Below, one piece after another: positions 9,529-48,871 of a DNA stretch of 64,000 nucleotides (its first letter is position 1; every line of letters starts with the position of its first letter). Origin of the DNA: Actinomycetota bacterium. GTDB taxonomy: Bacteria > Actinomycetota > Thermoleophilia > RBG-16-64-13. Position numbers and translations under genes: made by a program. The notes beneath the pieces are model-generated. The model was not told where the DNA came from. It worked only from the letters and a program-made list of their open reading frames with translations, and searched no databases. The DNA lies in NCBI GenBank assembly GCA_012523095.1, contig JAAYJE010000049.1, positions 1 through 64,000 of the forward strand, read 5' to 3'.

Positions 9529-10413
9529 TCAGACCTCGCCTCTCCCCCCGGCCGCTTCGGCCAAGGTCTCGTCCTCCGCCATATACCGGCGTAGATTCTC
9601 TATCGACTTCCGGATGAGCCTCGACACGTGCATCTGCGATATCCCGATGCGGGTGGCGACTTGTGTCTGGGTCATCCCTTCGAAGAAGCGCAGATGTAGG
9701 ATCAGACGCTCCCGGGGATCCAATCTCGCCATGGCAGGAGCGAGTACCCGACGCTGTTCGAACACCTCATAGGCCTCTTCTTCTGTCCCTAGATAGTCCA
9801 ACAACTCCAGGGATTCGTCGTCGTCGCCTGCTCCGCCCGAGAAGAGAGACACCGAGCTGTACGCCCGTCCGCTCTCCAGTGCCTCGACCACTTCCTCCTC
9901 GCTGACCTCTGTGGCCGCGGCCAGCTCAGCGATGGTCGGCGACCGACGCAATTCCACGGTAAGCCGCTCGATGACCTTGTTCAACTTCACATTAAGGTCC
10001 TGCAGGGCGCGCGGCACCTTGACGGCCCAACCCTTGTCGCGGAAATAGCGCTTGATCTCCCCCATGATGGTGGGAGTCGCGTACGTCGACAGCTCCACTC
10101 CCCTATCCAGATCGAAACGGTCGATGGCTTTGATCAACCCTATCGATCCGACCTGGATGAGATCCTCCACAGGCTGACCACGAGATGAGAAGCGCCGCGC
10201 CAGACTCCTCACCAGGGGTAGGTACCGCTTGATCAGCTCTTCGCGAGCGTCCTCGTCTTTGTGGTCCCGCACTCGAAGCAGAAGATCACGTTCCGACAGG
10301 GCCGCATAACTGTCGCCGTAACTCAGTGGGACGACGACCTGCCGCTTCTGCCCTCTCGATGGCTCCACCTCCGACACTAGCCGGTCCGTTTCTTCATCTC
10401 TACCGCGAACCAC
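9529..10413 (-). CDS. SigB/SigF-family RNA polymerase sigma factor
   Basis: Group 3 sigma factor of the SigB/SigF/SigG type, which directs RNA polymerase to stress or developmental promoters. The 294 residues contain regions 2.1-2.4 (GSIGLIKAIDRFD, then YATPTIMGEIKRYFRDKGW), region 3 (VPRALQDLN) and region 4 with a helix-turn-helix (MTQTQVATRIGISQMHVSRL). GTG 10413 has a good GAGGGA site and overlaps the anti-sigma-like gene by 37 nt. GTG 10377, which overlaps its stop codon by 1 nt, is an alternative. Adjacency to an HATPase-like protein fits partner-switch control. The transcript runs on into alaS. Confidence 0.9.
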   Translation of the reverse strand: MVRGRDEETDRLVSEVEPSRGQKRQVVVPLSYGDSYAALSERDLLLRVRDHKDEDAREELIKRYLPLVRSLARRFSSRGQPVEDLIQVGSIGLIKAIDRFDLDRGVELSTYATPTIMGEIKRYFRDKGWAVKVPRALQDLNVKLNKVIERLTVELRRSPTIAELAAATEVSEEEVVEALESGRAYSSVSLFSGGAGDDDESLELLDYLGTEEEAYEVFEQRRVLAPAMARLDPRERLILHLRFFEGMTQTQVATRIGISQMHVSRLIRKSIENLRRYMAEDETLAEAAGGRGEV

Positions 10414-10817
10414 CCCAAGCTTCCCTCTACCACGGCGTAGCTATCGACAAGAGAATCGAGGAATAGACGTACGTCGAGCAGACATCCCTCGCACGGCTGG
10501 AAGGGATCGCTCGCCAGCAGGGCCGCTTTCAGTCCCGGATTGGTCAATCCTTCCAATCGGAACGCGAAGCAGCCGCTTTCGACCCAAACGCAGAGCACCA
10601 GGTCGTCCCCCACCCCGGGCTCCTCAGCCATAAGCGTCTCGACGGCCAACTGGACGTCATCGAGTTCCTCCAACGGCATGTCGTGCCTGGATGCCATCCC
10701 ACTCATCACCACACGCATAACCGGCAGGGCAGGACCGCCCCTGGCCACGCGAAGCTCTACGATGTCTGACGAAGCGCTCAACTTGAGAGGACCGCTACTC
10801 CTACTGGATCGGAGCAT
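10377..10817 (-). CDS. Anti-sigma-factor-like HATPase-fold protein (RsbW-like, degenerate)
   Basis: Probably the partner that controls the sigma factor encoded directly downstream. The roughly 146-residue product resembles RsbW/SpoIIAB size and layout: a helix (DDVQLAVETLMAEE) where the N-box should be, followed by a beta-rich half. The N-box asparagine and the glycine-rich ATP-binding loops are not recognisable. It contains CEGC near the middle. The start is uncertain: ATG 10817 overlaps the ytxH-like gene by 17 nt and lacks a well-spaced ribosome site, apart from AGAGG 10 nt upstream. The family call rests mainly on position and general shape, so other functions are possible. Confidence 0.55.
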   Translation of the reverse strand: MLRSSRSSGPLKLSASSDIVELRVARGGPALPVMRVVMSGMASRHDMPLEELDDVQLAVETLMAEEPGVGDDLVLCVWVESGCFAFRLEGLTNPGLKAALLASDPFQPCEGCLLDVRLFLDSLVDSYAVVEGSLGWFAVEMKKRTG

Positions 10818-11058
10818 CCTCCTGGAGCCTCTCCCCCATCTCTTCCTGTTTCTCCATATACATCTCCCGACCCCGCTCCATGGCATCGTCGGCACGGCCC
10901 CGCAGATCGGCGAACATACGTTGCGCTTCAGCAGGAACGTCGGACAGAGCTTCCTGGAACGGCTTACCCGATTCCTCTGAGATGCGGTAGGCGATCAACG
11001 CCGCCCCCCCGAGGACTGCCCCTGCTGTCAGGATCAACAACGACCGGAACGATCCCAT
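10801..11058 (-). CDS. YtxH-like small membrane protein
   Basis: An 85-residue protein with one N-terminal hydrophobic helix (LLILTAGAVLGGAALIAY, about residues 7-24) followed by a charged helical region (GRADDAMERGREMYMEK). This is the architecture of YtxH-domain general-stress proteins. ATG 11058 is preferred over the adjacent GTG because it overlaps the preceding TGA by one base and has AGGAGG 5 nt upstream. It sits between a DUF948 protein and an anti-sigma-like protein. YtxH proteins are members of the SigB regulon in Bacillus, which fits the neighbouring sigma factor; that link is inference here. Confidence 0.7.
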   Translation of the reverse strand: MGSFRSLLILTAGAVLGGAALIAYRISEESGKPFQEALSDVPAEAQRMFADLRGRADDAMERGREMYMEKQEEMGERLQEDAPIQ

Positions 11059-11517: not shown

Positions 11518-12618
11518 TCAAGACCAGGCTTGTCGTGTTGACCGGATCGTCCCGGCCAACACGACCTCATCGCCCTCGTACAGGACCGCCGTTTGACCGG
11601 GTGCGATGCCCCTCAACGGTTTTTCGAGAACGATGGTGTCGGGTGGGTCCGTGCGCGCGGGCACAGCATCACCCGTGGAACGCAGTTGCGCCACCAGAGG
11701 TCCGGCGCCCGCCGGGCGGTGCCGCACGATACCGTCGATGGTCACTGCACCCACATCGGCGTCGCGGCCGTCACCGACCACCACCTCATCGCGCTCCGCG
11801 GCCAGTCCCACGACGTAAAGCGGCCCGCGACCGGCGACGCCTATGCGCCTGCGCTGACCGATGGTGAAGTTGTAGGCGCCCTCATGCCGCCCGACGACCT
11901 TTCCGGTCCGGTCGACGAGCGTGCCCGGCCTCTTCCCGAATCGTTCACGCAGGAAGCGCCGGTGATCGTTGTCGGGGATGAAACAGATCTCCTGGCTCTC
12001 GACCGCGGAGTCCTCCACCAGCCCCTCCTTCGCGACCCGGGCCCTCACCTCAACCTTGGTCATGTTCCCCAGAGGGAAGATGGTCCGCCGCAGAAGCGTC
12101 GGGTCCACCTCGGCCAAGACGTACGACTGGTCCTTAGCCCTGTCGACGCCCCGGGTGAGATTTCGAGGCCCGCCTGTCATCCGCGCATAGTGACCCGTCG
12201 CTATGTAGTCGAGGTTCATTCCGGCTGCGATCTCGACTAACAGACCGAACCGTACTCTGGCGTTGCACTTAGCACACGGATTAGGGGTCCGGCCGGCCTC
12301 ATACTCCTCCGCGAAGTACCTCATCACCTTCTCCTCGAAAGAGCGCCGGGCGTCAACCACCAGGTGTTGGATACCAAGCTTATCGGCCACCGCCCGGGCC
12401 CGCCGGACGACTTCCGCAGTACCGCTCCGCGGCTCCCGTCTCGAGGCTTCTTCCGGACACAGCAGCAGGGTCGCTCCCACTACCTGATAGCCGCGCTCAA
12501 CCAGCAGTGACGCGGCCATCGCGCTGTCCACGCCTCCGCTCAAGCCGACAAGGACGCCCGCGCCGGCTGCCTCCTCCGGCTCCACGTCTCTTGTCAAGTC
12601 GATCCTCTGCGGCGGCAT
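11518..12618 (-). CDS. mnmA: tRNA-specific 2-thiouridylase MnmA
   Basis: Transfers sulfur to U34 of Lys, Glu and Gln tRNAs using ATP. The 366-residue protein has the PP-loop SGGVDS at about 27-32. It has the catalytic cysteine in NPCAKCN (near residue 115) and the second, persulfide-carrying cysteine in QEICFIPD (near 205). The length is usual. The ATG start has only a weak ribosome site. TTGACG (with TATGCG 17 nt on) lies upstream on the minus strand, a poor promoter match. It follows the lipoprotein gene by 49 bp. Confidence 0.95.
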   Translation of the reverse strand: MPPQRIDLTRDVEPEEAAGAGVLVGLSGGVDSAMAASLLVERGYQVVGATLLLCPEEASRREPRSGTAEVVRRARAVADKLGIQHLVVDARRSFEEKVMRYFAEEYEAGRTPNPCAKCNARVRFGLLVEIAAGMNLDYIATGHYARMTGGPRNLTRGVDRAKDQSYVLAEVDPTLLRRTIFPLGNMTKVEVRARVAKEGLVEDSAVESQEICFIPDNDHRRFLRERFGKRPGTLVDRTGKVVGRHEGAYNFTIGQRRRIGVAGRGPLYVVGLAAERDEVVVGDGRDADVGAVTIDGIVRHRPAGAGPLVAQLRSTGDAVPARTDPPDTIVLEKPLRGIAPGQTAVLYEGDEVVLAGTIRSTRQAWS

Positions 12619-12667: not shown

Positions 12668-13171
12668 CTAACTTCGGCCCAGATCCACAAGTCCCTGGTT
12701 GAGTGAGCCCTCGTCCACGTAGCCATTCCAGACCCTGCGTATCACTCCCGCTTTGTCGATGAGGATCAACTCCGGTGGATAGCCGATCGTCAGCAAGGTG
12801 CTCAGATCACCGTAGGCGTCGGGGAGCTTGTAGTCGTAGACTAGGAAGGTGTAGCCGCTGAAGGAGGACTTCAGTCGATTCAGGCTCTCGAGAACACTCC
12901 TGTCGTCGGCGTTCCCCGGCACGTAGAATAGGACGACGACAGGGGTCTGCTCGTACGCATCCGTGAACTCCACCGGGGTATCGCGGGTCGTCCTGATGGT
13001 CGCGCCGATGACTCCCTGCCCGCCCGAGCCGGTCGGCGCGGTCGGAGTGGCTCCGCTTAGGCTTGTTGTAGTGGCGTCGCCACCTCCACCCCCGCCGCAA
13101 CCGTAGGCCGACAGCGTCACCAGTAGGATCACGAGAAGGACGCCAAACTTCTGTCTACTTCGTCCGGACAT
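12668..13171 (-). CDS. Thioredoxin-fold (AhpC/TSA-like) lipoprotein without redox cysteines
   Basis: The 167-residue protein starts with a signal peptide (hydrophobic residues 10-22) ending in a lipobox-like AYGC with Cys25, then a Gly/Thr/Ser linker. The remainder resembles a thioredoxin or peroxiredoxin-like fold: VVVLFYVPGNADDRS where an active site would be, and PPELILIDKAGVIRRVWNGYVD typical of TlpA/ResA-like C-terminal halves. Cys25 is the only cysteine, so neither CXXC nor a peroxidatic Cys is present. It is expected on the outer face of the membrane. The ATG is preceded by AGGAAGG. The gene directly follows the structured RNA at 13186-13343 and may use the same promoter. Confidence 0.75.
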   Translation of the reverse strand: MSGRSRQKFGVLLVILLVTLSAYGCGGGGGGDATTTSLSGATPTAPTGSGGQGVIGATIRTTRDTPVEFTDAYEQTPVVVLFYVPGNADDRSVLESLNRLKSSFSGYTFLVYDYKLPDAYGDLSTLLTIGYPPELILIDKAGVIRRVWNGYVDEGSLNQGLVDLGRS

Positions 13172-13185
13172 CGCTTACCTTCCTA

Positions 13186-13343
13186 TAAGAATGCTCCACC
13201 TTGCCGTGTCTGACAGGCGCTTGAACCTGCCGAAGCAGGTGGGTGGCCGCCTCTGAATGGAAATACGCCATTCAGGCAAACATGCCTCCCAAGCGAAATG
13301 TGTTGGCTCAAGTTTGGGCCAGATCACGCACAAGGTCGAGCAT
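13186..13343 (-). ncRNA. ssrS: Candidate 6S RNA (or structured leader of the downstream lipoprotein gene)
   Basis: The minus-strand RNA folds into a long closing helix: 13343-13320 pairs with 13212-13191 as about 21 base pairs interrupted by one G-G mismatch and two single-base bulges. Inside it lie an unpaired strand (13319-13296, containing UUGAGCCAACACAUUUC), an inner helix CGCUUG/CAAGCG (13295-13290 with 13223-13218), a hairpin ACCUGC-UUCG-GCAGGU (13240-13225) and an apical CUGAAUGG/CCAUUCAG hairpin (13275-13253). A rod with a central bubble and a hairpin in the 3' bubble strand is the 6S RNA architecture. As I recall, part of the bubble (UGAGCC...AUUUC) resembles the E. coli template strand. 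Location near aspS also matches Bacillus bsrA. No U-tract follows, and the RNA ends about 15 nt before the next start codon, so a regulatory leader remains possible. Confidence 0.6.
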
Positions 13344-13347
13344 CTTG

Positions 13348-13376
13348 AGGGTAACACAAGGCCCCCCACCCGGCAA
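13348..13376 (-). promoter_or_regulatory. Promoter for the 6S-like RNA
   Basis: On the minus strand TTGCCG (13376-13371) and TACCCT (13353-13348) are separated by exactly 17 nt, a sigma70-type arrangement. Initiation about 5-7 nt downstream would fall at 13343-13341, exactly where the long closing helix of the RNA begins. This coincidence is the best support for an independent RNA gene. Confidence 0.55.
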
Positions 13377-13453
13377 CGTTCGGCCCACCGCTTCTCGACT
13401 GCTTCCCAGCGCCTCATATACCCAATTCTCGACGGGTACGGCGCTTCACTTGA

Positions 13454-13485
13454 GGGTCGTCCCTGAAGGGCCATCCCTGCGACCC
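13454..13485 (-). terminator. Hairpin after aspS (possible terminator)
   Basis: GGGTCG and CGACCC arms (13480-13485 and 13454-13459) form a perfect 6-bp stem enclosing 20 nt, within which CCCTTCAGGG forms a shorter alternative hairpin. It lies 14 bp past the aspS stop and upstream of the RNA promoter. No T-run follows, so a Rho-independent terminator is only possible. Confidence 0.35.
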
Positions 13486-13499
13486 ACCGCCGAACCGGA

Positions 13500-15254
13500 T
13501 CACAGTGTTCTGATTCTGAGTTCGCGGAGTTGATCCACCGGGACCTCGGAGGGGGCGCCCGTCAGCGGACAGGAACCGCTCTGAGTCTTGGGGAAGGCTA
13601 TGACATCCCGGATAGAGGACTCTCCGGCCATGAGCATCACCATCCGGTCCAATCCCAAGCCTATGCCTCCATGCGGAGGAACGCCGTAGTCCATGGCCTC
13701 CACGAGGAAACCGAACTTCAACCCTATCTCCTCCTCCTCCAATCCCAAAGCACTGAAGACGGCCTCCTGCAGCTGTGGATCGGAGATGCGGAGCGAACCA
13801 CTCCCGAGTTCGACGCCGTTCAACACCAAGTCGTACGCGTATGTCCCCAACTCCAGCGGACGCTCCTTGAGATCCTCCAGGCTGTCGAGACGGGGCTTCG
13901 TGAAGGGATGATGCTGCGCCTTCAGCCTCTTCTCCCTCTCGTCGTACTCGAACATGGGGAAGTCGACCACCCAGGCGAACGACCATCCCGTGCGTTCCAC
14001 ACCGAGGCGGGTGGCTAGGGCAAGCCTGAGCGCTCCAAGGCTGGGCTCGACGACCTCTATGCTACCGGCGACCAACAGTATGAGGTCGCCCACTTGAGCC
14101 TGAAAACACCCGATGAGGGCCTGCATCTGTTCGGGGGTCGCGAACTTCTGCAGAGGAGACCGCACTGCTTCTTGCTCCACCCATATGGGGAGAAGTCCCT
14201 GTGCCCCGAACACCGCCGCCTGCGCCGCCAGGTCGTCGACGTCCTTGCGGGAGAAGCGCCCTCCGCCCTCGGCTCTTATCCCGCGTACTACGCCACCCAT
14301 GGATATCTTGTCCGCGAACAGGCGGAAGCCGATGCCCGAAGCTACGTCGCTCACGTCGACTATCTCCATGCCGAACCTCAGATCGGGCTTGTCGCTCCCG
14401 TATCGAGCCATGGCTTCTCTGTAGCTCAGGCGGGGGAAGGGCGGTTGAAGTTCGACGCCGAGGGCGTCAAGAAACACGGCCGAGAACATCCCCTCCACCA
14501 TATCCTGGATGTCGGCCTCATCGACGAAGCTCATCTCTATGTCGATCTGCGTGTGTTCAGGCTGCCTGTCGGCTCGAAGGTCCTCGTCGCGGAAGGCTCT
14601 CGCGATCTGGTAATAACGCTCGAAACCGGCGATCATCAGAAGCTGTTTATACAACTGCGGCGACTGCGGCAGCGCGTAGAACTCGCCCGCCTGCAATCTG
14701 CTGGGCACGAGGAAGTCACGGGCGCCTTCAGGCGTGCTTTTACACAGGATCGGGGTCTCGACGTCGACAAACCCACAGTCTCCCAGATACTGCCTGACCG
14801 CCTGCACCACCTGATGCCGAAGCAACAGGTTGTGGAACATGCGGGGCCGACGAAGGTCGAGGTACCGATAACGGAGTCGCAGGGTCTCATCGACTTCCTG
14901 GTCGTCTTCCGGCAGAAACGGCGGAGTCTCCGCCGCGGCCAGGATCTCGAGTTCTTCCACGACGATCTCCACGGCGCCTGTGGCTAAGTTGGGGTTGACC
15001 CTCTCAGGGGAGCGGGCGACCACCGCACCGGACGCCCACAGCACGTACTCGCTCCTCAAGTCCTCCGCCGTGGAATGAACCGCCGGGTTATCCTCAGCCT
15101 CGAAGACCAACTGCACCAAGCCTGTGCGGTCGCGCAGGTCGACGAATATGAGCCCGCCGTGATCGCGCCTCCGCTGCACCCACCCGGCAACACGCACCCG
15201 CCGGCCTATACTGCTCTCGTCGAGAGTCCCACACCATTCGTCTCTGTACGCCAC
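13500..15254 (-). CDS. aspS: Aspartyl-tRNA synthetase
   Basis: Class II synthetase charging tRNA-Asp (or also tRNA-Asn if non-discriminating; this cannot be told from what I can see). The 584-residue bacterial-type protein has the N-terminal OB anticodon domain (VRVAGWVQRRRDHGGLIFVDLRD), motif 2 (FRDEDLRADRQPEHTQID), the bacterial GAD insertion, and motif 3 (GIGLGLDRMVMLMAG). GTG start with AAAGGA upstream. It follows hisS by 49 bp in the relA-MBL-hisS-aspS series and ends the operon before the 6S-like RNA. Confidence 0.97.
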   Translation of the reverse strand: MAYRDEWCGTLDESSIGRRVRVAGWVQRRRDHGGLIFVDLRDRTGLVQLVFEAEDNPAVHSTAEDLRSEYVLWASGAVVARSPERVNPNLATGAVEIVVEELEILAAAETPPFLPEDDQEVDETLRLRYRYLDLRRPRMFHNLLLRHQVVQAVRQYLGDCGFVDVETPILCKSTPEGARDFLVPSRLQAGEFYALPQSPQLYKQLLMIAGFERYYQIARAFRDEDLRADRQPEHTQIDIEMSFVDEADIQDMVEGMFSAVFLDALGVELQPPFPRLSYREAMARYGSDKPDLRFGMEIVDVSDVASGIGFRLFADKISMGGVVRGIRAEGGGRFSRKDVDDLAAQAAVFGAQGLLPIWVEQEAVRSPLQKFATPEQMQALIGCFQAQVGDLILLVAGSIEVVEPSLGALRLALATRLGVERTGWSFAWVVDFPMFEYDEREKRLKAQHHPFTKPRLDSLEDLKERPLELGTYAYDLVLNGVELGSGSLRISDPQLQEAVFSALGLEEEEIGLKFGFLVEAMDYGVPPHGGIGLGLDRMVMLMAGESSIRDVIAFPKTQSGSCPLTGAPSEVPVDQLRELRIRTL

Positions 15255-48718: not shown

Positions 48719-48747
48719 GGACGGCGCGCACATTCCTGCCGCGCACC

Positions 48748-48860
48748 GGTCTTCTCTCTTCCAGACTTTCACTGTCGGCCCAGGGCTCTCACCTGGTCGG
48801 CCCCAGAGGGCTCGCGGGCTGTCACCGCCGGTAGGGAATCTCACCCGACCCCGAAGACCA
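48748..48860 (-). promoter_or_regulatory. FMN riboswitch (RFN element)
   Basis: The minus strand shows the conserved RFN blocks in order: CTTCGGGGTCGGGTGA, ATTCCCTACCGGCGGTGA, AGCCCGCGAGCC, GGTGAGAGCCC, GGGCCGACAGT, AGTCTGGA and the closing AGAGAAGACC, which pairs with the GGTCTTCGGG start. FMN binding is expected to favour the terminator at 48682-48718 and so shut off ribD-E-BA-H. A GTGCGCG/CGCGC segment between the two is a candidate antiterminator. Confidence 0.95.
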
Positions 48861-48871
48861 TGTGTCGTCTC

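Follow-up and report, generated by a model that had tools for sequence, protein, structure and literature searches.

Identity of the element between aspS and the lipoprotein gene

The question raised by this locus is what occupies the 328-bp gap between the stop of aspS (13500) and the start of a lipoprotein gene (13171), both of which lie on the minus strand of the window, i.e. the whole analyzed stretch of 64,000 nucleotides from an Actinomycetota bacterium. The gene boundaries agree with the gap described in an earlier note on this DNA, in which the element had been called a probable 6S RNA gene and a search with the Rfam 6S covariance model as well as a look for covariation in relatives had been proposed. 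6S RNAs are small promoter mimics that keep RNA polymerase occupied. The Rfam 6S model RF00013 matched positions 13189–13344 (minus strand) with 71.4 bits (cutoff 46.4; E = 4e-12 for the window) over the whole model length (positions 1–187), and this match is the sole copy in the 2.54 Mb genome. A covariance model of our own, trained on sequences of the class, assigned 152.9 bits to positions 13186–13345. Relative to the Rfam consensus, the apical arm lacks about 24 nt. Within the span of 13186–13376 proposed earlier, the transcribed part covers about 13346–13186, while the upper end at 13376 belongs to the −35 element. All features are outlined in Table 1.

The Rfam match, the covariation in relatives, the pRNA template and the aspS synteny described below back the earlier call, and we consider it highly probable that this element represents the source organism's 6S RNA gene (ssrS). 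The family match, the structure with its covariation, the conserved promoter, the alternative helix and the synteny are demonstrated for this RNA; polymerase binding and pRNA synthesis would follow from its membership in the family, and the termination site given here is a probable one. As an RNA it is ordinary, belonging to a known family as one of its standard members. A 99-aa open frame on the same strand (13175–13474) overlaps the 6S RNA; it was taken as a chance frame because the RNA structure accounts for the conservation.

Table 1 Features of the aspS–6S–lipoprotein locus, with positions in the window and the evidence for each (ends of the 6S RNA are approximate).
Feature	Position	Strand	Evidence
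aspS, aspartate--tRNA ligase, upstream neighbour	13500..15254	minus	NCBIfam equivalog NF001750, 808 bits; 6S linkage conserved
−35 element TTGCCG	13371..13376	minus	sequence; TTGnnn kept in 37/40 relatives, ~1% in shuffles
Extended −10 element TGT-TACCCT, 17-nt spacer from −35	13348..13356	minus	sequence; conserved as (TGn)TAnnnT
6S RNA, ~160 nt	13186..13346	minus	RF00013 71.4 bits, own covariance model, fold, covariation
Closing helix, 5' strand	13330..13344	minus	fold and covariation; helix 1, 98.9% of cells paired
P2 5' strand and putative pRNA template, CUUGAGCCAAC	13302..13312	minus	nearly invariant in 40 relatives; refolding model; comparison with known pRNAs
Element of the predicted refolding	13290..13295	minus	predicted refolding; family covariation, 0/5000 permutations
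3' bubble-strand hairpin ACCUGC-UUCG-GCAGGU	13225..13240	minus	3 bp in free RNA, 6 bp once P2 opens (predicted)
P2 3' strand GGUUCAAG, predicted to be freed on pRNA synthesis	13220..13227	minus	helix 3, 99.1% of cells paired, 3 compensatory pairs
Closing helix, 3' strand	13189..13203	minus	fold and covariation
U-rich tail UUCUUAU right after the closing helix, possible termination site	13185..13191	minus	T counts in relatives; termination inferred
Lipoprotein ribosome-binding site AGGAAGG	13178..13184	minus	sequence
Thioredoxin-fold lipoprotein without CxxC	12668..13171	minus	structure model, PDB matches, synteny
mnmA, next downstream neighbour	11518..12618	minus	NCBIfam NF001138, 341.9 bits; order conserved

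Promoter, fold and covariation

The TTGCCG-17-TACCCT promoter noticed earlier is present at 13376–13371 and 13353–13348, with a TG one base upstream of the −10 element. The motif TTGnnn-17/18-TAnnnT was found correctly placed in 37 of the 40 relatives, which come from four families, compared with about 1% in shuffled sequences; a strict sigma-70 promoter scan gave no match at the locus. From this sigma-A type promoter with its extended −10 element, a rod-shaped RNA of about 160 nt would be transcribed.

The predicted fold of the minus strand has a minimum free energy of −72.3 kcal/mol (z = −4.4), and none of 200 shuffles was equally stable, corroborating the earlier proposal that the ends of the transcript pair with each other. 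The alignment of the 40 relatives, drawn from the window's own family f1 and from f6, f3 and f2, comprises 37 pairs in five helices with 97.8% of the cells paired, and in 16 of these pairs compensatory changes occurred on both sides. The covariation score amounts to 0.281 as against 0.121 in shuffles (reached in 0 of 500), and sliding the partners by 1–3 columns lowered the paired cells to 38–44%. The 6S structure is under selection. Covariation thus backs the rod that characterizes 6S RNAs, with its closing stem, central bubble, helix P2 and apical arm. The class-trained model detected it in 115 of the 150 class members, with matches also in the families f4, f5, f8 and f72, which were outside the training set. 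No match to this model was obtained among the listed members of the class family f7 (G026, G031, G036, G046, G056 and others), an apparent loss of 6S RNA inside a class that otherwise bears it.

pRNA template and release switch

The 5' side of the central bubble carries UUGAGCCAACACAUUUC, and judged by its sequence the pRNA template is located on this side. The predicted pRNA 5'-GUUGGCUCAAGUUU, whose start lies opposite C13302 (GUUGGCUCAAG...; 5' start GUUGGCUCA), resembles both the E. coli pRNA AUCGGCUCAGGGGACU and the G-initiated pRNA of B. subtilis 6S-1, GUUCGGUCAAAACU (PMC12005410), and has GGCUCA in common with the E. coli pRNA AUCGGCUCAGGGG (PMC12005410).

When at least nine template bases were blocked, the predicted fold formed the collapse helix CGCUUG/CAAGCG, and the 3' hairpin ACCUGC-UUCG-GCAGGU lengthened from 3 to 6 bp. 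In the window's family the collapse helix covaries: the members build it from differing sequences (CGCUUG/CAAGCG, CUCUUG/CAAGAG, UGAAC/GUUCA), and their own partners yield −7.71 kcal/mol compared with −5.39 for permuted partners (0 of 5000 permutations, a value which is not a strict probability because related sequences are not independent). Taken singly, f6, f3 and f2 gave no significant covariation of this helix, since the sequences there vary too little or pair elsewhere. Predicted refolding and the covariation in f1 together point to a release switch of the 6S type, consisting of the 3' bubble hairpin and the collapse helix.

By analogy with the family, the central bubble and its flanking helices would imitate an open promoter, so that the housekeeping RNA polymerase holoenzyme may bind the 6S RNA instead of DNA. 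With plentiful nucleotides the polymerase would copy the 5' bubble side from C13302 into a short pRNA (GUUGGCUCAAG...), whose synthesis is expected to open helix P2. The freed P2 strand would allow the bubble to close (CGCUUG with CAAGCG) and the 3' hairpin to lengthen, and the polymerase would be released.

B. subtilis 6S-1 (bsrA) is likewise a rod with a central bubble, its free form contains a small 3' bubble hairpin, and its central bubble closes into a collapse helix on release (PMC8876501). It differs from the RNA of the window, which is about 160 nt long with a shorter apical arm and which is followed about 20 nt further on by the thioredoxin-fold lipoprotein gene, not by yrvM. E. coli 6S RNA (ssrS) belongs to the same Rfam family, but it is a longer RNA at a different locus; its 3' bubble hairpin also lengthens as P2 opens (PMC8876501), yet to a 9-bp hairpin and with no collapse helix.

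3' end and the downstream lipoprotein gene

A classical terminator scan found none at the locus, and within 130 nt no hairpin terminator was present in 48 of 50 class members (two have one); in the family f25 five of nine members carry one. The earlier statement that a terminator is lacking consequently holds for a separate hairpin terminator and has to be amended, as the closing helix leads directly into a conserved U-rich tail. At least five T within the 10 nt after this helix were counted in 17/17 members of f1, 8/8 of f6 and 7/9 of f3, with a background of 3–11% (3% for f1). Since the tail follows directly, the closing helix may have weak terminator activity. Most likely the 3' end lies at this tail, where transcription would stop perhaps incompletely: the window's own UUCUUAU is weak for a terminator and the ribosome-binding site is immediately next to it, so that read-through is plausible; it would lead to expression of the lipoprotein gene, which has its start codon about 20 nt downstream. 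Longer versions of B. subtilis 6S-1 that carry additional aspS or yrvM sequence are reported to retain the ability to bind the sigma-A holoenzyme (PMC11077062), and a longer form of 6S RNA therefore need not be inactive. The lipoprotein has a single cysteine (position 25, in the lipobox) and a predicted domain with pLDDT above 90 that carries no CxxC site. The best PDB matches of its model are thioredoxins (Foldseek E = 3e-6, TM 0.79 by target), and weak hits to Pfam Thioredoxin_2 were obtained for 14 of 23 relatives. E. coli 6S RNA is also followed by a co-transcribed gene (ygfA).

The arrangement at this locus raises the alternative that the RNA, although folded like 6S RNA, has no role in trans and acts mainly in cis, as the lipoprotein gene's leader or attenuator. 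No separate terminator intervenes, the lipoprotein start codon lies about 20–26 nt past the closing helix in most members of f1, f6 and f3, and the arrangement recurs in f10, f19, f47, f64, f65 and the record L104; across all these families and L104, relatives of the lipoprotein start about 11–26 nt past the 6S match. In the Coriobacteriia record L119 a weak profile match to the lipoprotein (E = 7e-4) starts 57 nt past it. The 6S RNA is, however, kept beside other neighbours (f25, f12, f22), the aspS–lipoprotein pair is kept without it (f24, f51, f69), and conservation extends to the pRNA template, P2 and the collapse helix, none of which a simple leader would need. A purely cis-acting leader is therefore very unlikely.

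A 6S RNA that additionally serves as regulated 5' leader for a thioredoxin-fold protein, membrane-anchored and without CxxC, with the closing helix and U-rich tail of the RNA forming a self-built leaky terminator, is a more tentative extension, which we regard as rather doubtful. If it were true, polymerase sequestration and lipoprotein expression would share one promoter and one folding decision.

The order aspS–6S–lipoprotein recurs in several families and is a further lead. In f24, f51 and f69 aspS and the lipoprotein gene are adjacent without a detected 6S RNA (gaps of about 80–270 nt to the matched part), so that gene order does not prove a functional link, and a coupling of 6S RNA and lipoprotein drawn from it alone is weakened. 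In other families with 6S RNA, the downstream gene codes for a RarA-like ATPase or is alaS.

Two arrangements among the relatives were noted besides. A RarA-like AAA ATPase follows the 6S RNA in the actinobacterial families f22, f36 and f50 (e.g. L180:1613-2968), and such an ATPase is likewise reported as a 6S neighbour in lactic acid bacteria (PMC8414754). In f19 genomes (G071 and G085, for example) aspS and the lipoprotein relative are divergently oriented on opposite strands; in G085 a 6S RNA lies between the two on the strand of the lipoprotein gene, and in the other listed f19 genomes neither Rfam nor the class model found one.

Distribution in Actinomycetota

Publications from 2022 and 2024 describe the Actinobacteria as lacking 6S RNA or as having none identified, and regard Ms1 as its substitute there (PMC9130861, PMC11077062). 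Among 296 sampled genomes, RF00013 found 6S RNA in 98 and the class model in 82, which results in 111 for the union of both lists. We infer that the phylum of these genomes is Actinomycetota, because of the AspRS of the Coriobacteriia record L119 and because of WhiB. The former shares 60–64% identity with the AspRS of f20, f27, f41 and f47, all from the window's phylum, and no more than about 56% with those of the compared Bacillota records; WhiB occurs in 135 of the 296 genomes and, among the control genomes, matched only Corynebacterium glutamicum, in which no 6S match was obtained. Among the named records, L104 (55.4 bits) and L119 (47.6 bits) lie above the Rfam cutoff, and f20, f27 and f41 show weak 6S matches of 31–46 bits below it.

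6S RNA was found in 107 of 161 genomes without WhiB, as against four of 135 genomes with WhiB (G063, G073, G100, G298); the Fisher p of 1e-33 for this association was computed without regard to shared descent. Canonical 6S RNA is thus present in more than a third of the sampled Actinomycetota genomes, almost exclusively in lineages without WhiB, which points to its loss in WhiB-bearing lineages. The aspS-side placement of Bacillus bsrA, to which the earlier note refers, is borne out by the literature, where aspS and yrvM are named as its flanks (PMC11077062), and 6S RNA also lies directly downstream of aspS in the Bacillota records L083, L084 and L102. As many of the actinobacterial families show this same position, the data suggest an old aspS-linked locus that was inherited vertically and lost in WhiB-bearing lineages.

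With Ms1, which binds core polymerase without sigma, the question arises whether the RNA of the window belongs to this type instead. Both come from the same phylum, and Ms1 of Mycobacterium and Streptomyces, a polymerase-related RNA, is likewise a rod with a central bubble, described as structurally related to 6S RNA and as replacing it in Actinobacteria (PMC9130861). Ms1 is, however, about 300 nt long, has extra hairpins at both ends, binds the core enzyme and shows a different synteny (PMC9130861), whereas only about 160 nt of RNA lie between promoter and start codon in the window, where the additional hairpins would not fit. Furthermore, the RNA matches the Rfam 6S model and carries a pRNA template and a predicted release switch, its aspS synteny is that of Bacillota 6S RNA, and the window's genome has no WhiB, while 6S RNA is nearly confined to WhiB-less lineages. 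An RNA of the Ms1 type is consequently extremely improbable, and 6S RNA is retained as the assignment.

Earlier surveys (Wehner 2014, Barrick 2005) or the Rfam full alignment may already include actinobacterial 6S RNAs, so that first sight is not claimed here. The finding is useful as a phylogenetic correction to the distribution of 6S RNA: its loss and the origin of Ms1 become questions that can be tested by sequence, and the 6S-bearing Actinomycetota are organisms in which 6S RNA and Ms1 could be compared.

Further observations

Elsewhere in the window, a sigma factor of the SigB/SigF/SigG family (9529–10413, minus strand; TIGR02980, 301 bits) is encoded just upstream of alaS on the same strand, and a small ORF (10377–10895) overlaps the start of this sigma gene. 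An FMN riboswitch aptamer was detected at 48745–48862 (minus strand; RF00050, 107.5 bits). Among the comparison records, a Syntrophomonadaceae contig (L090:8175-8274, minus strand) matched the pyrrolysine insertion sequence mttB (RF02510) with 60.2 bits.
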